Assembly (NCBI GenBank): GCA_025353725.1
Contig: JANXOF010000074.1
Coordinates: 1 to 55,158 of the forward strand
Direction of reading: 5' to 3'
DNA from: Polyangiaceae bacterium
Lineage (GTDB): Bacteria > Myxococcota_A > Polyangia > Polyangiales > Polyangiaceae
Length of the DNA: 55,158 nucleotides
Below are positions 12,243-26,317 of this stretch, in pieces. The position numbers and the translations under genes are program-made. The notes beneath the pieces were generated by a model that saw only the letters and a program-made list of their open reading frames with translations, had not been told where the DNA came from and ran no database searches. Position 1 is the first letter of the stretch; each line of letters begins with the position of its first letter.

Positions 12243-15200
12243 TTACGCCTTGAGGTCTTGGAGAAGGGCTCGCGCTCGCGCAAGGGCTGCGGGGGACGTC
12301 TCGCTGTCGACCGCGCGCTCGAGCATCTGAATCGCCTTCGCCGTCTCGCCTTGCTTCATCGAAATTTCACCTAAAAAACAGAACACTTCGCCTTTGAGGA
12401 TCACGCGCGACGCGTCCAGGCGCTGGAGCAAGAGCGCGCGGAACGTTTTTTGTGCCCTCTCGAAGTCGTTGGCGGCGAATGCGATCATCCCCAGATCCTT
12501 GAGCACTTCGATGGCGCCTGGGTCTACCCGAAACGCCGCGTCGAGCTGCACGAGCGCAGCCTCGTTATCGCCGAGCGCCGCGAGCATCAAGCCAAGTCGA
12601 TGGTAATGAGGCGCGACGTCCTTCGTTCGCCGGTTACCGAACGAGGCAATCACGCGCTCGAGAACGCCCGCCGCTTCTCGGTGTCGGCGCGCCGCCACGT
12701 AGGCATCGGCGAGCCGTAGCAAGCCTTCGCGATCGTGAGGCATCAGCCTCGCGGCGCGCTCGAGCAACGTCATCGCGAGCTCCGGCGATTGCAACTCGGC
12801 GAGATAAAGGTGTGCCGCGCGATGCAACAAACCCGCCTCCTCCGTCACGAACGCCGGAACGGCAGGCCCGGGCGCCGCGGAAGGCGCCATTGAACCGGGC
12901 GGTACGGAACCCCGAGGTGGCACAGAACGCGCGCCCACACCGGCAGGCGCCGGCACCACGCTCGGCGGTTCGTAAGGGTTTTCGCGGCGCAACGCATCGG
13001 CGTGAGCGACGAGGAGCAACGCGAGTTCGGCCCATTTCTCCGTCGCCTCATAGGCGGCGGCAAGCCTCGCACGGACTTCGGGATGATCCGGATGCGCGTC
13101 GAGGGCGAGCATTAAAACGGCGTCGACGCCAACGTCGCTGCCGGACCGCGGGCAAACGTCGGCGAAGCGGAGCGCGAGAGCCACCACCTCGCCTGCGCGG
13201 GTCCTCTCGTCGACGCGCGCAACGTCAAACCACGTACGAAGCGCCGTTGCGGCTAACTCCCATTCACCGCGCGCTTCGGCAAGACGGGATACCGCGCTGA
13301 GCGCCGCTTCGTTGAGCGGAGCCAGCGAAAGCACGTTTCGGTACGCCGTCAACGCCGCGCCTGCGTCTCCCACGTGCGCTTCGAGGACCTCGGCAAAGCG
13401 AAGCTTTAGGTCTATCTCGCGTTCGGTATGCCCGCGCACACCGGCGCGCGTCGCACGTTGGCCCAAGAGGTCCGCAAGTTCTCGAAACTGCTCTTCTTTT
13501 TCGTAGTTCGCCGCGAGCAAAATTCCCGCCTGATCGTGATCGGGATCGCCTGTAAGAATCGCTCGCAACGTCTCGCTCGAAGCTGAGGGACTCGCAAACG
13601 CTTCGAGTTGAAGCTGCGCCAGATCCATCCGCAATTCGCTTTTCGCCTCGCTCGACGTCGCGCGGTGGATCAACGTTCCGAGCAACGTGGCAAGCTCGCC
13701 GTGCTTCTCGAGAACGCGGAAGAGCGCGCGAAGCCTGACTTGCGCTTGCACGTCGTCGGGATCGTGAACGAGGATCTCCTCGTAAAGGCGACTCGCGCGC
13801 TCACGATCACCAAGCGAATCGGAGAGCACGACGGCGGCGCGATGACGTAGCTCCTTCGCCGTCGCTCTATCGCGCTCGCATTCGACCTCCGCGCGCGTCA
13901 GGAGAACGCGTATCACCTCCTCGTGATCGCCCTCGCTTTCACGGAGGCGAATCAACTCACCGGACGCCCAGGCGTCGCCTCGATGGCGAAAATCGGCGAG
14001 CCACTCCCTCAGCGTTTCCGCCGCAAGCTGACGGTCAAGCACCACGGTTTCGGCGAGCCCCGCGGCCTCCCGCGCGAAATCCTGCCGCGTAGCGAAGGCT
14101 GGCTCCAGCCTCGCAAGAAGCCGCAGCGAACCTACCCTGTCACGCTCACGCCCGGGCTCTCGCGTCATCCCCTCCCTCGCCCGGAGAAATTCCACGTTCT
14201 CGGCATCGAGTTCGAGCGCGCGCGCAAAGGCGACCTCAGCGCCGCGCGGATCCGCGATTCGGTCGCGCCTCCAAAACCCAAGGCGCCCCCAGAGCTCGCC
14301 GCGGACAGACCCCGACACGACCGGAAGTGCCACGCTCGAAGGTTCAGTCTCCAAACTCGTTAGCGCCGAAAGTGCGAGCGCGAGCGCGTCGGTGGCCTGA
14401 CTCCAGCCGCCTGTTTTTTCCGCAAGGCGAGCGAGTTCACCCAGGGACGACGCTTCGGCAAGCCCTTCGACCACCGCGGCCTCGATGACACGCTGAGCCG
14501 CCGCCGCATCAAGGCACGATTCCTCCAGCACGCGCGCAAGCCCGAGGCGAGCTTGCGTCCGTGCCTCCACCCCCGTCGCGCGCTCGAACCGACGCGCATA
14601 AAGGCGCGAAAGGTCCGCGCCGCGAGAGGTCGCGCGGTAGACGCTATCGAGAATTTCAAACGCCTCGTCGAAGCATGCGTCGTCGGTGAGCAACGTTTCC
14701 AAAGCCACACAACTCTCGACGTGGTTCGGCACCGAATCGAGCGCCAGGCGAAGCTTTGCGAGAGCCGTCGCGGAATCGTTGAGCGGGCCCGAATGAAGAT
14801 CCGCAAGCCGAACGTAAAGCTCGGCGCGTCGCGCGGGCTCCGTCGTGATGGCGACGCGGCGCTCCAAAACGCGCGCGAGAGAACCTGCGTCGCCGACCTT
14901 TTGGGTCACGCGCTCCAGCGCGACGAGAATCTCAAAAGAGTCGCGCGTTCGCGACGCCGCGCGTTCGTAAGCTTCCACGGCACGCGGGAGGTCCCCGAGC
15001 TGTTCCTCGGCGATGGTTCCATGACGCATCAGCCGTGTTGCGGCGACACTCGCGTCCGCGCATTCACTCGCGAGCCCGCGCAGGACGTCGGCGTAGCGCT
15101 CCCACGCAGGCATGCCGAGTTGTGCGGAGAGGCGCGCTGTCTCGGCATGAAGGTCGTCGACGTCGGGGTCCTCCGCGAGCGCACGAAGAAGCGTCGCCGC

Positions 15201-18200
15201 GGCGCGTTCTGCGTCCTTTAACGGCCCTTCGTAGACTTCTGCGAGCCTGCGTAGCGTCAATACCCGATCCGAGACCTCCGCTTGGGTTCGCAGCCGTAAC
15301 TCCAAGGCATTCGCCACTCGGGCGTAGGCGCCCGCGGCTCGCGCTCCGGTCTCGAGGGTGTCCGCCGCGCGGGATGTAAGGTCGCTATGAAGATCGCCGA
15401 GTTCGTAAACTCCGCGTGCCGCGTCCTCGTCGTACCCCTGCGCAAGGACTTCCTCGAACGCCGTGAGCGCCTCGTCGAACGCGCCGAGCTCGGTAGCAAG
15501 AAGCTGACCCGCGCGCAGGATGAACACCGCCCGCGCTGAAAGCTCGGACTCGACGTGAGCCCGCTGCCGCAACGTCACGAGAAGCTCCGGCCACATCTTC
15601 TCATCCGTGTAAAGTACATCGAGATGAGCGAGCGTCTCGATGTCGGAAGGTTTAGCGGCGAGCGCCTTCTGAGCCGCGCCTATCGCCGCAGGCCGGTTGC
15701 CGAGCCCCGCGTCGTAAGCTTTCGCCACGTCGAGCATGAGGCGATGTTTTAGGTCTTCGGAACCCGCGCCGCACAACGCGATCCGCCGCTCGCAAAACGT
15801 GACGTACCGCGCCGGATCGACCGCCGCGCAGAGCGCCGTCAAGCTCTCGAGCGCGAACTCACTCTCCGGCTCGAGCTCCAAAGCGCATTCGTAAGCCTCA
15901 ATCGCGCCCGGTACGTCGTTGAGGAGATCACGACGAGACTCTCCAATGCGCCGCCACAAGGCCGCCCGTTCCTCGCCGTCGTGCACAAGCTCGGTGCGAG
16001 CGACCAGGACACGCACGACCGTCGACCAATCGCTAAGCAATGTCGCGAGCTTTTCGATTTCGTCGAGCGGCCGCACGGACGTTGGGTCAAGCTTCGCCAA
16101 CCGCTCCCACACGCGGAGAGAACCACGAGGGTCGTCGCGCCGCTCATCGTGGAGCACCGCGAGAGCTTCGAGGAGTTCGCGCCGCGGGACTTCAGAGGCG
16201 CTCGTGCACGCCTCTTCGTAAGCGTCGGCGAGTTCGTCCCAGCGCTCGGTCGCCGCCGCAAGGCGCTCGAGCAACGCGCGTAGCTCGAAGTCTTCAGGGT
16301 CGAGACCAAACGCCGCCCTCGCGCATACGAAAGCGTTTTTCGTGTCGTTTCCGCGCGTCTCATGGAGGCGTGCGGCCTCGCGGAGCACGGCAACTTTCTC
16401 GCTGACACGCGAGGCCAAGGCCAGGCGAGCAGGCACGAGCGACAACGTCTGAGCCCAATCGTCGCGCTGCTCGTAGAGGAAGCGGAGACAGTCGACAACT
16501 CGGGCCTTTTGAGGCTGCGCCTCCGGAACGGTCGCAAGCGCCTCGAGCTCCGTCACCGCCGAACGCCACGTCTCACTGACAACTTCCGTGGGCGTGTCAG
16601 CGGCGGGCATCACGAGCCGCGCGACCGCCTCGAACTCGTCTATCGACCCGTCGTAATCCTTGAGCTTCGCGGACAGGAGAGAGCCGAGAGAAAGTCGCCA
16701 TCGCGCCTCCTCCTCGGGAGGGCCGCCTTGTTCCGCGCGGCGCCGGTAGACCGAGGCAAGCTCACCAAAGTGCTCGCGCTGCGCGTAGAGACGAGCGAGT
16801 GCGTCAAGCGCTCGCGCATCGGTCTCGTCCGCGTCGAGAATCGACTGAAAAGTCGCGACTGCCGCATCGACGTCCGCGAGATCGTGTTCCTCGATTTTGG
16901 CGAGCAGGTGATGCGTCGCGAGCGTCGCCTCGAGACCGGTGCTGAACGCGAGAGATTCACGATGGATCGTCGCGCGCTCCGCGGCGAGACAACCCTGCTC
17001 GAGCAGCCGGTCAATCGCCTCGAAGGAGGCGCGCTGGTCCTCAGGCGCGAACATGTAGGCACGTCGATAGAAATCCAGCGCTCGCGCGGATTCGCGCTGA
17101 GCCTCGAAAAGCTCTCCCGTGCGAAACGAGAGAAGCGCCGTACCCGGATCGTCGCTCGTCACTTTCTCAAGCTCGCTCGCGTAAATTTCGGCGAGTCGCG
17201 CCTCGGCGTTTGCCAAACGCGCGAGTCTCTCGAGCTCTTCCAACGTGCTGCGCTCTGTCGGATCTTCCGCCAAAAGTCGCGCGGTGACCTCGAGACTTGC
17301 AGCTACGTTCCCCTCTTGGTCCTCGTGCACTTTCGCGAGGCGACGCAAAAGCGAACGTCGGTCGAGGGCGTCTTCGGTCCCTTGAATGCGAACCTCGAGA
17401 CAGTGAACCACGCGCGCCCATTCGAGACGTGCACAGTACACGGACTCAAGCGTCTCCGCCGCATGAAGCGAGGGTGCAGGCTTCCGCATCAAAGCCTCGA
17501 GATCGCCAAGCGTCGCCTCGTGGAACGGCTCTTCGCGAAGCGCTTCGGCGTACGATTCGAAGGCGCGCGTCTCGTCCGCTAGTTCCGTGCAATGTACACT
17601 ACCTAGCCGTTGGTGCAGGGTAGCGCGCTGCGAAGAGGTCAGCGTCGTCGCAACGAGCTCGCGCTCGTAAAGCGCGACGAGATCTCCCCAACGCGCGGTC
17701 GTCGCGTAAAGCCGATGGAGCTCCGTTGCCGCCGCGGCCGCGACTTCACTACCCTGTTCGTCGTCGAACCCCGACTGGAGCATCTCTTCGTAGGCGGCGA
17801 TCGCGCGGTCTGTATCGCCGAGCGAAACTTCACAAACGAGAGCGATTTTGCGAAAAAGAGCGCTCTTTGTCTCCTCCGCATTCGCGAGCGACGCACGGCG
17901 CCGCAAGATGTCGACAAGCGATTCGTGCTCGTTGTCGGCTTCGTAAAGCTGTTCGAGAGCCAAGAGCGCGCGAGCGTCATCCTCGGCGGCCTCGAGCCTT
18001 CGTTCGAAGTACTGTTTGGCAAGGAGACGGTCATCGAGTTTCGTCCACGCCAACTCGGCAATACGGAGTGTCAGCGAGGCGCAAGCGTCCGGTTCTTGCA
18101 CATCTTCGCGCACATCGCGAAAGAGCGCGACGAGTAGACCATACGCCTGCGTTCGCTCGGCTAACCGCTCGACGCGGGCAAGCCAGACGTTGAGAGAGGG

Positions 18201-21200
18201 TCCACCCGCGGCGTCACGCAGCGCGCCCGAGGCCAACGTAAATGCCTTCTCGGGGTTTCCAAGCGGCCCCTCGGTCACCTCCACGGCTCGCGCGTAAAGC
18301 TCGAGTCGATCGTCCGCGAGAGAGGCATTGTCGATTTGAATCTCGAGAACGCGAACAAGGGCATCAAAGTCGCCGACCGCGTCACATATCGGCCGGAGGA
18401 TTTCTGCCACGTCAGCGCGGACTGCGGCGTCGTCGAGAAGCTCTTCGAGGGCGAGACGCGACGCACGATTCGACGCGTCGAGTTCGAGCGCCGAGCGGTA
18501 AGCCTCGACCGCTTCGCGGACGTCCTGAAGGAGCGTTCGGCGAACGTCTCCGAGCCTCGTCAAAACGACCACACGATGAGCATCGGTGGTGGTGAGACTC
18601 AATTCGGCTTCGAGCGTCTCGGCCAGGTCCGACCACTGCTCGGCCCGTTCGAAGAGCCTCGCAAGCTCCCCGAGTGTGGCTTCTTCGGCGCCAAAGTCGT
18701 CGAGGACCGCGCGGTACGCGAGGATCGCAGCGGGAACATCATCGAGGCTGCCGGCAAGCAAACGCGCCGCGCGAAGCATGTAGGTTTTGCGCGATTCGTC
18801 CGTGCCGCCGGAGTGACGCTCACGGGCTCGAAGCACCTCGACAAGAGCGCTGTGATCGGACGTGCGTACGTAGAGGCGGTCAAGCGCCGTGAGCGCTTCG
18901 TCGTCCGCGGGGTTCAGTTCGAGAGCCGTGTTCCACGCCGCAATAGCCCCCGCGTTGTCATCGAGTTCGTTCTCAAGAACCGCGGCGAGTTGCCCGTAGA
19001 GCACGCGGCGGACCGAAGCCTCATCTTCGAGCGGCGCGTGAGCGGCGAGGACTTCGGCGAGGTCGCGGCTTTTACCGCACGCGAGGTAGATTCGCTCGAG
19101 GGCCCGAAGCGCGGGCAACGCGACGGCGGGGTCTTCGGGTGCGAGACGCAGAATCTGGATGTAAATCGCTTGGGCTCGGTCGCTCGTCGTGTTCGCCGCA
19201 TAAATCGCGGCCACCTCGAAAAGGAGCTCCGCGCGCGGTTGCGGAGCCTCGGCGCGCGCCGCGGCGGTGAGCAAAACGTCTGTCGCATTCTCGATGCGAA
19301 CGAGCCGCTCGGCCAACGCAAGAAAACGCGCGCGCACGTCAAGGTCCGAAGACGCAAGCGGCAGCAACCGGGCATAGGCCTCGAAGGCGCCGGACTCGTC
19401 TTTCAGGCGCTCATCGCGAATGTGCGCAATACGTCGAAGAAGCGCAGGCCGCTCGCTATCGTCGTCCGAAACAAACTCGAGGCGCACCTCGAGAATGCGA
19501 ACGAGCGCGCTCATTTCCTCGTGCTCGGCGTACACAGCTTCGAGCATCACCGCGGCTCGCAGGCGCTCCTCAGGGTGAGCGAGACAACGCTCGACGACCT
19601 CGCACGCGCCGGCATTCGACGCGTCAGCCAAGGGCAAATCGTCGAACGCCTCGAGCGCGCCTTTGGCGTCCCCGAACTGCGTCATGAGAAGAGTCCCGAG
19701 CCTGACTTTCAAGGCCGGCGCGTCGTGTGGACCCGCGACCGATAGCCTTCGCCGGAGCAACGGCGCGAGATCAAACCAACGCGCCTCGGAAACGTAGAGT
19801 CGGTCAAGCGACCTCAGGGCCTCGTCGTGCAACGGCTCCAGCGCGAGCACGCGCTCCTGATAGCCTATCGCCCGCTTCGAATCGCCGCGAATATCTTCGG
19901 CGACAATCGCAACTTCACTAAGGAGTTCAACATTGCGCCGCGGGTCTTCAATCCCGCCGAGAACATGCTCGTAGAGCTTTTCGAGTTCATTCCAATTCTC
20001 ACGCGTCGTGAGGATTTGCTTCAAGCGAGCAAAGGCGCCTTCATGCGCCGGGTCGATACGGAGAATTCGGTCCCAGTAAGGCGCCGCGCGATCCTCGTCG
20101 CCGAGCTCCTCGAAGACCAAAGCGGCTCGCTCGGAGACTTCCCTTTCTGCCGCCGTAGATAGCCCAGACGGCCCTGCGTCGGGCACCGCCTGCGTCAAGC
20201 TCTCGACATAGTCTCTCGTGCGCTGCGTCTGCTGTGCGAGCGTGCCCAACCGTTCCCACAGCTCGGCCTCGGACGGGTGGTCCTGCACCATGCGCGCGAG
20301 GAGTTCGAACGAGGCGTCGACGTCGCCGAGCTTTTCTTTCGCGTTTAAGAGACGCAACTCAAGTGCAAGTCGATCGGCCTTCGAAGCGGTCGTGGCAATT
20401 CTAACCGCGAGAATCTCGCTCTGCTTTTGCCAATCAAGGTTCTCGCTATACGCCTCATCGAGCAAGGCCGCGGCTTTCGCGCGCGTCTCGGCGACCGCCA
20501 GCAGCTCGCGAGCCAATTCAATGACGCGAACGTCCGAGGCGCTGACAGCAGACGCGCGGACCACCGCGGCGAGCGCCTCAAGTGGCTGCTGAGACCCTCG
20601 GAGAAAACCCCGCGCGGCCTCCAGCTCGCGCGTGAGGTCTGGCTCCGAAGAACCCGAATCGAGTCCCTGTTCCAGAAAGAACGAGAGCATGCCCGGGTGC
20701 GCGGGCTGCGCTTTACGTAACCGCTCGAAATAGGGTTTCGCGGCCGCCGGGTCGGCACGCATTTTCCAATGGACCATCGCGATTTGGAGGACCATGCCGT
20801 CTGCTTCTGCAGGCTCAAAACCTTCGCGGGCGAGCTGAGTCTCGTAAAGCGCGACAAGGTCGCTCCAACGCGCGGCGTCCGTGAAGTGGTGGACAAGCGC
20901 GCTCATCGCCTCCCTTGGAGGATCCGCCGAGAGCGCAAAAACGCGCTGGTAAGCCGACATCGCGCGGTCGTTCGAACCGAGCTTTTTCTCGAGCACGCGC
21001 GCCGCCCGCTGCAAGGCGGCGACCTTGTCGTCCACCTGCGTCGACGCCTCCGCGAAGGTTTCGAGCACGCGCACCACGTCCTCCCACTTGTCTTCCGCAC
21101 GGAGGAGTCGCTCGTTGAGGAGAAGCGCGCGGCGATTTTTAGGATCGAACGATGACGCGTCCCTGAGCAGCGCTAGGACCTTGCCGCAAAGCTCGACGCG

Positions 21201-21914
21201 CGCGCGCGACGCGGGGGCCGGCTGCGCGGGTAAGGAAGGTTCCGAGTCGGGCGAAGCCTTCGCGGCGGCCTTCTGCTTCTTGCTCTTCTTAAGACTACGT
21301 GAACTCTTCGGAGGCGGAACCACCGCGCCAAGGTTGCGAGTGGAGTCGCGACTCTCGCGCGCCTTTGCCTCCTTCGAGGTGAGTTCCGAGAGGCCATAGC
21401 GGTACGCGGTCTCTGCCGCGCTGACGAGCAGCGAGCTCTTGAACGACGCGTCACTCGAGGCCTTCGCCTCGGTGAAGTAGCGCATGGCGAGATCTTTCCA
21501 CTTCCCGCGCTTGGCATGCGCACGGCCGAGGACATCCGCCGCGTTGGTGTCGTCGGGACGGAGAACGACCAGCCTTTTGTAGGCCTCGAGTGCCCCTGCG
21601 TCGTCGAGCAAGACATCGTCCCGGAGACTCGCGAGCTCCGCGACGAGCTCGGCCTCGCGCTCACCTCCCCACCGCTTCGCGAACGCCGCTTCGATCGCGA
21701 GGAGTCGTTCAACGGCCTCGTACTCGCCTCGGGCTGAGTGCGCGTACCTCGCGGCCGCGAGCAACTCCGCGAGCGCGTCTTCGCCGAGTTCGTCCGCCTT
21801 CCCTGTTCTTAATGAGGTCGACGCGACGTCAGAGCGCAACTGGCTCCACACGGCGTCATCGTCCGGCTCATCTTGAAGGAGACCGAGAAAGCTACGAATC
21901 GTTGTCGCGGTCAT
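12243..21914 (-). CDS. Giant tetratricopeptide-repeat protein (about 3,223 aa)
   Basis: An uninterrupted 9.7-kb frame encodes a protein built almost entirely of TPR-like helix pairs. Units such as AIAAWNTALELNPADDEALTALDRLY and the recurring 'ALEALDRLY ... W.DL...L' pattern repeat dozens of times, with larger units of roughly 100-110 residues. No signal peptide or membrane segment is seen. A Lys/Ala/Ser-rich basic insert (about residues 205-245) and a Pro-rich insert (about 2975-3015) break the solenoid. Such proteins act as scaffolds; no partner can be inferred. I prefer ATG 21914 over a TTG 12 bases upstream. It heads a minus-strand unit with the acyltransferase and is divergent from the lipid-kinase-like gene. 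Confidence 0.85.
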   Translation of the reverse strand: MTATTIRSFLGLLQDEPDDDAVWSQLRSDVASTSLRTGKADELGEDALAELLAAARYAHSARGEYEAVERLLAIEAAFAKRWGGEREAELVAELASLRDDVLLDDAGALEAYKRLVVLRPDDTNAADVLGRAHAKRGKWKDLAMRYFTEAKASSDASFKSSLLVSAAETAYRYGLSELTSKEAKARESRDSTRNLGAVVPPPKSSRSLKKSKKQKAAAKASPDSEPSLPAQPAPASRARVELCGKVLALLRDASSFDPKNRRALLLNERLLRAEDKWEDVVRVLETFAEASTQVDDKVAALQRAARVLEKKLGSNDRAMSAYQRVFALSADPPREAMSALVHHFTDAARWSDLVALYETQLAREGFEPAEADGMVLQIAMVHWKMRADPAAAKPYFERLRKAQPAHPGMLSFFLEQGLDSGSSEPDLTRELEAARGFLRGSQQPLEALAAVVRASAVSASDVRVIELARELLAVAETRAKAAALLDEAYSENLDWQKQSEILAVRIATTASKADRLALELRLLNAKEKLGDVDASFELLARMVQDHPSEAELWERLGTLAQQTQRTRDYVESLTQAVPDAGPSGLSTAAEREVSERAALVFEELGDEDRAAPYWDRILRIDPAHEGAFARLKQILTTRENWNELEKLYEHVLGGIEDPRRNVELLSEVAIVAEDIRGDSKRAIGYQERVLALEPLHDEALRSLDRLYVSEARWFDLAPLLRRRLSVAGPHDAPALKVRLGTLLMTQFGDAKGALEAFDDLPLADASNAGACEVVERCLAHPEERLRAAVMLEAVYAEHEEMSALVRILEVRLEFVSDDDSERPALLRRIAHIRDERLKDESGAFEAYARLLPLASSDLDVRARFLALAERLVRIENATDVLLTAAARAEAPQPRAELLFEVAAIYAANTTSDRAQAIYIQILRLAPEDPAVALPALRALERIYLACGKSRDLAEVLAAHAPLEDEASVRRVLYGQLAAVLENELDDNAGAIAAWNTALELNPADDEALTALDRLYVRTSDHSALVEVLRARERHSGGTDESRKTYMLRAARLLAGSLDDVPAAILAYRAVLDDFGAEEATLGELARLFERAEQWSDLAETLEAELSLTTTDAHRVVVLTRLGDVRRTLLQDVREAVEAYRSALELDASNRASRLALEELLDDAAVRADVAEILRPICDAVGDFDALVRVLEIQIDNASLADDRLELYARAVEVTEGPLGNPEKAFTLASGALRDAAGGPSLNVWLARVERLAERTQAYGLLVALFRDVREDVQEPDACASLTLRIAELAWTKLDDRLLAKQYFERRLEAAEDDARALLALEQLYEADNEHESLVDILRRRASLANAEETKSALFRKIALVCEVSLGDTDRAIAAYEEMLQSGFDDEQGSEVAAAAATELHRLYATTARWGDLVALYERELVATTLTSSQRATLHQRLGSVHCTELADETRAFESYAEALREEPFHEATLGDLEALMRKPAPSLHAAETLESVYCARLEWARVVHCLEVRIQGTEDALDRRSLLRRLAKVHEDQEGNVAASLEVTARLLAEDPTERSTLEELERLARLANAEARLAEIYASELEKVTSDDPGTALLSFRTGELFEAQRESARALDFYRRAYMFAPEDQRASFEAIDRLLEQGCLAAERATIHRESLAFSTGLEATLATHHLLAKIEEHDLADVDAAVATFQSILDADETDARALDALARLYAQREHFGELASVYRRRAEQGGPPEEEARWRLSLGSLLSAKLKDYDGSIDEFEAVARLVMPAADTPTEVVSETWRSAVTELEALATVPEAQPQKARVVDCLRFLYEQRDDWAQTLSLVPARLALASRVSEKVAVLREAARLHETRGNDTKNAFVCARAAFGLDPEDFELRALLERLAAATERWDELADAYEEACTSASEVPRRELLEALAVLHDERRDDPRGSLRVWERLAKLDPTSVRPLDEIEKLATLLSDWSTVVRVLVARTELVHDGEERAALWRRIGESRRDLLNDVPGAIEAYECALELEPESEFALESLTALCAAVDPARYVTFCERRIALCGAGSEDLKHRLMLDVAKAYDAGLGNRPAAIGAAQKALAAKPSDIETLAHLDVLYTDEKMWPELLVTLRQRAHVESELSARAVFILRAGQLLATELGAFDEALTAFEEVLAQGYDEDAARGVYELGDLHSDLTSRAADTLETGARAAGAYARVANALELRLRTQAEVSDRVLTLRRLAEVYEGPLKDAERAAATLLRALAEDPDVDDLHAETARLSAQLGMPAWERYADVLRGLASECADASVAATRLMRHGTIAEEQLGDLPRAVEAYERAASRTRDSFEILVALERVTQKVGDAGSLARVLERRVAITTEPARRAELYVRLADLHSGPLNDSATALAKLRLALDSVPNHVESCVALETLLTDDACFDEAFEILDSVYRATSRGADLSRLYARRFERATGVEARTQARLGLARVLEESCLDAAAAQRVIEAAVVEGLAEASSLGELARLAEKTGGWSQATDALALALSALTSLETEPSSVALPVVSGSVRGELWGRLGFWRRDRIADPRGAEVAFARALELDAENVEFLRAREGMTREPGRERDRVGSLRLLARLEPAFATRQDFAREAAGLAETVVLDRQLAAETLREWLADFRHRGDAWASGELIRLRESEGDHEEVIRVLLTRAEVECERDRATAKELRHRAAVVLSDSLGDRERASRLYEEILVHDPDDVQAQVRLRALFRVLEKHGELATLLGTLIHRATSSEAKSELRMDLAQLQLEAFASPSASSETLRAILTGDPDHDQAGILLAANYEKEEQFRELADLLGQRATRAGVRGHTEREIDLKLRFAEVLEAHVGDAGAALTAYRNVLSLAPLNEAALSAVSRLAEARGEWELAATALRTWFDVARVDERTRAGEVVALALRFADVCPRSGSDVGVDAVLMLALDAHPDHPEVRARLAAAYEATEKWAELALLLVAHADALRRENPYEPPSVVPAPAGVGARSVPPRGSVPPGSMAPSAAPGPAVPAFVTEEAGLLHRAAHLYLAELQSPELAMTLLERAARLMPHDREGLLRLADAYVAARRHREAAGVLERVIASFGNRRTKDVAPHYHRLGLMLAALGDNEAALVQLDAAFRVDPGAIEVLKDLGMIAFAANDFERAQKTFRALLLQRLDASRVILKGEVFCFLGEISMKQGETAKAIQMLERAVDSETSPAALARARALLQDLKA

Positions 21915-22021
21915 CGGGGGCCGCAACCGTACAACGCGCTAACTTCATTCAGGAAAGCGCGCGTTCTCGGAAGCGTTACCTCGGATGGTACGGACGCCGG
22001 TGGTCGCTTTCAAGCAGACGG

Positions 22022-24971: not shown

Positions 24972-25567
24972 CGTCGAAGTGTAGCAGACCGATTCACTCG
25001 CTCAACACGGGGCTGGGCAACAACCAAGCAGGCCTCGGATGTCAGGTAAAGATTATCGTCGCGTGAATATCTCGCTGTAAAGCGAACCGCACGCATCCGC
25101 ACTCTTCTAACAGGTGTCACCATGGATCGCGGATACCCTTGCTTTGGGGGTCGAGGTCAGCATCGCTTGTTCGCGCACGCCGATGGTCGGACGGTCGTGG
25201 CGACATTGGACTTCCATCAAGTCCGTGCTCTCGTTACCCGGCGGACCCCACCAACGCCTCCGCTGGATGCGGAGGTCTTACGGTTACTTGTCTCGGCAAG
25301 GCCTTCGCGAAGCACGCCGCGGCCGTCCACGCGCTGCGAAGGCGGACTTGGGGATAAAAGTCAGCTTCGCAGCGGATGCGAACGCTGACTTTTTCCAGAC
25401 CGTTCCGTTTTCAGCGGATGCGAACGGCGTTTTCTGCCGACATGTCGCGCCCGCATCAGGTGCGAAGGCGACAAGGCGCAAAGAAACCGCGCCCGCATCG
25501 AGTGCGGTTGCATCTCCGGTCCGCGGTGTAGGTATTGTTCTGCGGGCCGAGTGCTATGTTGCACGCC
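24972..25567. other. Gene-free region between divergent Uma2-type and MNT genes
   Basis: About 600 bp with no frame I can support. Plus-strand frames at 25114-25695 and 25122-25388 are open but match no known domain. Short direct repeats occur near its right end. It must hold promoters for both flanking genes; a TATGTT about 10 bp before the MNT start could be a -10. It may be degenerate accessory DNA. Confidence 0.45.
25370..25426. repeat. Direct repeat of cagcggatgcgaacg, two copies
   Basis: A 15-base unit occurs at 25370-25384 and 25412-25426, 42 bp apart. A second unit, cgcgcccgcatc, occurs twice further right (25449-25509 region). The copies are not separated by similar spacers, so this is not a CRISPR. 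Origin is unknown. Confidence 0.55.
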
Positions 25568-25915
25568 ATGGAAGAGCTGCAACAGACCCCCGCCAGGGTG
25601 CTCGTCGTGGTTCGTGCGTACCGGCGTTTGCTCGTCGATCGCTTCGGAGGGAGGCTCCTCATTGTGCGTATGTTTGGCTCCTATGCACGGGGTGACGCCG
25701 ACGAGAGTTCAGACATCGATGTCGCCGTAGTCGTTCAGGCTCTCACAGAGAGCGAGCGGACCGAGGCCATCGATCTCGCGCTGACAGCATGGAAGGAGGA
25801 CCGCTCTGCAGGACAGCTTTCGCCCCTTGTTTGGAGTGAGCGAGAGTTCGAGGATCGTATTCGCTCGGAGCGTCGTATCGCCCGAGACATTTTTTCCGAA
25901 GGCGTCGTCTTCTGA
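25568..25915 (+). CDS. MNT-type nucleotidyltransferase (antitoxin of HEPN/MNT module)
   Basis: The 115-aa protein from ATG 25568 carries the minimal nucleotidyltransferase signature GSYARGDADESSDIDV, with the GS motif at residues 37-38 and metal-binding D49 and D51. MNT proteins of this kind can AMPylate and silence the adjacent HEPN RNase. The active-site residues are intact. The frame is open upstream to 25535 but the family start fits ATG 25568. Its stop overlaps the proposed start of the HEPN gene by 4 bases (CTGA), as in a co-translated toxin-antitoxin pair. Confidence 0.85.
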   Translation: MEELQQTPARVLVVVRAYRRLLVDRFGGRLLIVRMFGSYARGDADESSDIDVAVVVQALTESERTEAIDLALTAWKEDRSAGQLSPLVWSEREFEDRIRSERRIARDIFSEGVVF

Positions 25916-26317
25916 ACGAGTCCAACCGTAGCGAAAACGCGGCGCGGGAATCGGCTTTCGGAGACGACGCACTCCGCGCCGCGGAGGCATTGCTTGCGCT
26001 CCAATCTCTACAACGACGCCGTCAGTCGGGCTTATTACGCCGTGTTCCCTTATGCGCGGGCGCTTTTACTTTTTGATGGGTTCGAACCGAAAACCCACCG
26101 CGGAGTCTTCGCATTGCTCGAGCGTCATTTCGAGACGACCGGCCGTTTATCCCGCGACTTGCTCTCCCGATTTGCCCGCCTTCAGACCTTTCGCGGGCTC
26201 GCGGACTACGATTCGCGCGAGCGACTCCCTGCCGAGCGCGCGGCCTTGGAGGTGGCGTCGGCCCGCGTCTTTGTCGATGAAGCGCGGCGAGCATTCTTGA
26301 ACACCGCCGCACTATAG
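25912..26317 (+). pseudogene. HEPN-domain protein, split by a frameshift
   Basis: The N-terminal helix (LNESNRSENAARES ... AAEALLAL) is read from CTG 25912 in one frame. The rest, including YNDAVSRAYYAVFPYARALLL and a C-terminal helical tail, is in the next frame from about 26003 to 26317. Together they match the HEPN family, where a helix ending in ALLAL is followed directly by LYNDAVSRAYYA. The junction at about 25999-26003 has one surplus base. The catalytic motif is not an obvious RX4-6H, so RNase activity is uncertain even if the gene were whole. Alternatives are a sequencing error, a programmed frameshift, or internal initiation at TTG 25994 giving a 107-aa product without the first helix. 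Confidence 0.68.

Follow-up and report, generated by a model that had tools for sequence, protein, structure and literature searches.

The closest described counterparts of the locus examined here are the MntA-HepT (type VII) systems, SO_3166-SO_3165 of Shewanella among others. In the portion of PMC11586414 drawn on here, GSX10DXD is named as the motif of the minimal nucleotidyltransferases (MNT) of HEPN-MNT modules, and RX4HXY as the HEPN motif of the MntA-HepT type. A second point of reference is AF0298 (PDB 2hsb), a UPF0332/HEPN-T protein. The active site proposed for AF0298-like HEPNs, in the excerpt of PMC3710099 used here, consists of a conserved histidine, located in an insert between helices 2 and 3, and the basic residue that belongs to the usual motif. 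Antitoxins orphaned by the degradation of their toxins are also on record. The available passages of PMC7354431 describe a parE pseudogene in Caulobacter, a frameshifted YacB in Shigella, and orphan antitoxins in Klebsiella, and report that anti-addiction has been proposed as a role for such orphans.

The window (the whole stretch of 55,158 nucleotides that was analysed) contains a locus that shares with MntA-HepT the GSX10DXD motif of the MNT, an HEPN helical bundle, and the two-gene operon. Unlike MntA-HepT, its HEPN is of the AF0298 type of PF05168 and lacks RX4HXY, with R94-x3-D98-Y99 present in relatives and window alike. Its MNT scores 34.7 bits against the 60-bit cut-off of the NCBIfam MntA equivalog and thus belongs to a related but separate branch. 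The loop histidine and the helix arginine of AF0298 are common to the window HEPN, whereas the window copy is split and has a proline in helix 2. As with the orphans in the passages of PMC7354431, the antitoxin gene is open and the toxin gene broken, in one of those cases by a frameshift; the toxins there belong to other families, whereas the antitoxin here is of the enzyme type. Since orphan antitoxins with degraded toxins, including frameshifted ones, have already been described, the window locus is a further example of a known event. Among open-licence papers, none was found by title or abstract on this locus or on HEPN decay in the order.

The MNT gene and the two frames of the HEPN gene

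The features of the locus are as follows.

25568 to 25915, + strand: MNT antitoxin gene, intact, 115 aa (PF01909 score above cut-off, GSX10DXD kept)
25912 to about 26001, + strand: N-terminal HEPN piece (helix 1) in the ancestral frame, its CTG overlapping the MNT stop where relatives have GTG, ATG, or TTG
25983 to 25996, + strand: GGAGG and, 6 nt on, TTG 25994, a possible internal start (read by eye)
25994 to 26317, + strand: C-terminal HEPN piece, open, beginning near where helix 1 ends (PF05168 profile match)
25999 to 26003, + strand: change-over between the two HEPN reading frames (from the sequence and its translations)

The MNT gene runs from ATG 25568 to the TGA at 25913-25915. Its product contains GSX10DXD, as in HEPN-MNT modules, and scores 36.4 bits against NTP_transf_2 (PF01909; cut-off, 21). 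It also matches the PADLOC profile PDC-S09 (candidate defence protein) with an E value of 5e-13, no curated cut-off being shown for this profile. An HEPN gene adjoins it downstream with a stop/start overlap in which the start is CTG. This gene is not contained in one open reading frame, and the locus is a broken module.

The C-terminal HEPN piece matches PF05168 with 44.1 bits (cut-off, 22), starting only at profile position 20. The missing N-terminal part was found in the neighbouring frame, where it matches the three closest relatives (L214, L215, and L216) at 17, 16, and 21 of 29 positions and is recognised at positions 2 to 31 by a local HEPN model built without the window (E value of 0.01, weak alone). 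This agreement with both the relatives and the model shows that the piece is a true remnant and not a chance resemblance. Because intact relatives match each of the two pieces, the split is a genuine feature of this sequence. A preliminary description of this DNA had called the antitoxin intact and the HEPN whole only if one base near 25999-26003 is ignored, and both statements agree with these results.

The N-terminal frame is open from 25840 to 26076, and its sole ATG, GTG, or TTG is TTG 25990, where helix 1 ends. The three closest relatives, in which an in-frame copy had been proposed as a check, each have HEPN in a single frame (3/3), starting with TTG, GTG, and ATG, respectively. More widely, HEPN is in frame with its overlapping start in 31 of the 32 relatives scored, and the distance from the MNT stop to RxYY is in frame in the same proportion (31/32), with a one-base offset in the window as well as in L010. 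This exception (also L164; G100:C5) is from the same genus and breaks at a different site, its HEPN lying one base out of frame with the usual start; an in-frame TTG could still yield most of the HEPN domain there.

The longest nonoverlapping open frames (mechanical ORFs) extend up to 3,227 aa and together occupy about 95% of the window, giving no sign of pervasive indel error. The frame of 3,227 aa lies on the minus strand at 12243 to 21926.

HEPN fold and two further lesions

The window HEPN is of the AF0298/UPF0332 type of PF05168; the profile score comes from its C-terminal piece, and the fold comes from the intact relative L214, not from the window copy. The HEPN of L214 (Myxococcales MAG; 131 aa) was modelled from 37 sequences with a mean pLDDT of 96.8 and has helices at residues 3 to 29, 33 to 54, 62 to 74, 83 to 99, and 107 to 128. 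The closest fold is that of AF0298 (Z of 21.4, rmsd of 1.9, 125 aligned), which the window C-terminal piece also matches by sequence with an E value of 2.4e-9. Solved HepT/HEPN toxins gave Z values of about 9 to 11.5 (11.5 for 6m6w_B and 10.8 for 5yep_B), which is only suggestive for helical bundles, where a match with a Z below about 13 is weak alone.

Two departures from the relatives, neither of them in the preliminary description, accompany the frame change. The HEPN start of the relatives overlaps the MNT stop as NTGA, and its first base is G in 23, T in 5, and A in 4 (32 of 32 scored; 6 of 39 rows, with the MNT motif not found upstream by the script, were left out), whereas it is C in the window. 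The second departure affects the residue that follows YYAxF in helix 2, a position occupied by His in 37 of 39 sequences, by Tyr in one relative, and by Pro in the window, where it replaces H46 (L214 numbering). This His is invariant in alignments of 21 and 37 intact relatives, the search pattern for the set of 37 having contained it. A count of 78 of 80 in a wider set was set aside because the search pattern itself contained the His.

Conserved residues kept in the C-terminal piece (L214 numbering) are S38, R39, Y41, Y42, L52, H62, R94, D98, and Y99, among them the His of the helix 2-3 insert and the three residues (Arg, Asp, Tyr) that close the fourth helix. Because the insert His and the motif Arg of the proposed active site are kept, the Pro in helix 2 is more likely to be a structural than a catalytic lesion. 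Compared with intact homologues, frame, start, and a conserved residue are all disrupted, as in a pseudogene.

A scan of genome contigs with the C-terminal piece as the query found no relative, and one with an alignment as the query found 117, of which 80 were kept. In 23 of these 80 loci, a full HEPN stood beside only a partial match to the local MNT model, which is read as a limit of that model, since the phyla are distant and the matches begin at model positions 20 to 35. The set of 80 was left out of the count of MNT/HEPN asymmetry given below.

HEPN-MNT loci across the order

A search of 183 genomes of the order with MNT and HEPN profiles led to 59 loci, all scored in the same way. These were chosen manually, taking MNT places of at least 52 bits together with HEPN places with an E value of 1e-8 or better, from the best candidates of each genome (at most 25 for MNT and 22 for HEPN), and some loci may be absent. 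MNT places with lower scores, one of them in the genome of the window, were excluded as general nucleotidyltransferases. A gene was called full or partial by its coverage of the local model in one match (positions 15 to 90 for MNT and 15 to 120 for HEPN). Some of the census loci had gone into building the models, with the window MNT inside the MNT model and the window HEPN left out of the HEPN model.

Whole pairs make up 33 of the 59 loci, and decay is therefore not the rule. A full MNT accompanies a partial HEPN in 12 loci, including the window, and an undetected HEPN in 5. The reverse, a full HEPN with a partial or undetected MNT, was found in three (the orthologues L208 and L213, and L190, a lone divergent HEPN), and six loci have both genes damaged or are fragments only. 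The discordant classes (17 against 3) differ with an exact-test P of 0.0026 for equal odds and 0.0060 for odds set by model length, for loci that are not fully independent (several share a genome) and come mostly from draft genomes. With the divergent MNT loci L191 and L210 removed and the orthologues counted once, the classes number 15 and 2 (P of 0.0023 and 0.0057). Some assignments are borderline: L164 was scored full despite its usual start being out of frame, L167 partial though replaced only at the C-terminal end, and L187 and L189 as HEPN undetected though a few N-terminal residues are kept, as judged by eye.

The damage takes several forms. HEPN is truncated at various points in L156, L177, L182, and L206, has a frame break near position 86 in L179, and in L193 consists of a few N-terminal residues joined to the C-terminal end. 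In L165 (G100:C6, 1535 to 1822), HEPN has lost helix 2 through an in-frame internal deletion and is no longer matched by Pfam; the MNT next to it is intact.

The genome of the window holds 7 of the 59 loci, of which three are whole pairs, two (the window and L156) have an open MNT and a broken HEPN, and two (L160, possibly adjoined by an insertion element, and L161) have both genes broken. Among the near copies L156, L160, and L161, dN/dS is 0.05 to 0.11 for HEPN and 0.10 to 0.30 for the MNT stretches. These low values in both genes are read as divergence while the copies were working, with breakage later, and such late breakage speaks against a need for special retention of MNT.

Three arrangements stand apart. 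In L208 and L213, a counter-example from two related genomes, the MNT is without its N-terminal part and the HEPN looks whole. L163 (G100:C4, 1199 to 1930) has MNT and HEPN in one frame with no stop between them, a fused reading of 244 residues with both Pfam domains. L183/L226 (G171:C39) has a 5' half of HEPN that is very similar to the corresponding part of L214 from the same MAG and is followed by unrelated sequence; no MNT was detected there.

Probable toxin inactivation and its alternatives

The locus is probably an HEPN-MNT toxin-antitoxin module with a toxin gene that was inactivated, likely in the recent past, and an antitoxin gene that is still open. Loss of the toxin with retention of the antitoxin was already suggested in the preliminary description, and it is the best reading of the sequence, in keeping with the 17 of 59 loci in which a full MNT accompanies a damaged or undetected HEPN. 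Little or no full-length HEPN would then be made, and the pair would no longer work as a toxin-antitoxin system. The toxin gene would have been lost first, as expected because a cell that lost its antitoxin first would be left unprotected from the toxin. The remaining MNT may be no more than a relic, or it may serve as an enzyme modifying the HEPN toxins of other modules, and open MNT genes may simply have lacked the time to decay.

Several points tell against inactivation. Apart from its lesions, the C-terminal HEPN looks barely more diverged than working relatives: its pN against L200 is 0.27, compared with 0.21 for the whole HEPN between two relatives, the other comparisons with the window being near saturation. 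CTG can initiate translation weakly, one relative has Tyr at the helix-2 His position, and the counterparts of the proposed active-site His and Arg are retained.

An intact HEPN gene, with the frame change introduced by faulty sequencing or assembly, is unlikely. Such an error would fit a single draft assembly of 98 contigs and the open, conserved state of the remaining HEPN frame. The change-over site, however, is not a homopolymer, and open frames elsewhere in the window are long. Two separate departures, the CTG start and the replacement of His by Pro, would not be explained by one sequencing error, and they weaken error alone as an explanation. The truncated and internally deleted relatives are not single-base errors either, though they may be misassemblies.

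The two other products raised in the preliminary description fare worse. The TTG at 25994 is present, with GGAGG 6 nt upstream, and reinitiation there after the MNT stop could give a short HEPN of 107 aa that functions as a toxin fragment or as a partner of MNT. The frame is open to 26317 with the loop His, the Arg, and the DY kept, and L164, also one base out of frame, likewise has an in-frame TTG available. The predicted product, however, would align to the relatives only from about residue 31, without nearly all of helix 1, and carries the Pro in the middle of helix 2, so that a working toxin from this start is unlikely. The GGAGG (25983-25987) is accounted for by codons of an A-E-A stretch in helix 1, and none of the three closest relatives (0/3) has this arrangement. 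A functional short HEPN is on balance improbable.

Programmed +1 frameshifting that yields full HEPN would suit the sequence conservation of both pieces and the two frames open over 25916-26073. A frame change of this kind would be expected to be conserved in close relatives, whereas all three of the closest need no shift; among the sequences examined, the change is private to the window, a point against programming. No recognisable slippery site was found by eye at the change-over. A slip-prone TTT TGA of the prfB type does occur, at 26071-26076, but it comes after the conserved part of helix 2, where a shift could no longer connect the two pieces. Programmed frameshifting was rejected on the single-frame HEPN of the closest relatives, and its chance is very slim.

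Toxin inactivation at this locus could also be part of a wider pattern, in which HEPN-MNT modules of the order repeatedly lose the toxin first. Selection would then maintain the MNT enzymes by themselves for the immunity they confer, through adenylylation of HEPN toxins that belong to incoming modules or to paralogous ones (anti-addiction); this extension is doubtful. On the preferred reading, the locus clearly illustrates how an HEPN-MNT module decays toxin first, which alone is routine gene inactivation. The recurrent one-sided damage among relatives adds modest interest, and the 59 loci provide a panel for asking whether an enzymatic antitoxin outlasts its toxin.

A promoter scan gave 0 sites against 0.3 expected, and 2 terminator-like sites were found against 1.6 expected. 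Upstream of the module, positions 25339 to 25510 hold hairpin-rich repeats with units around GATGCGAACG and CGCATC-GTGCG at 42-nt spacing. The first of the hairpins has a z of −4.0 and the other three have values of −1.2 to −2.1, and related stretches occur at three other places in the genome (69 to 73% identical). Farther upstream, on the other strand, lies a gene for a putative endonuclease of the Uma2 family (PF05685; 24126 to 24971).
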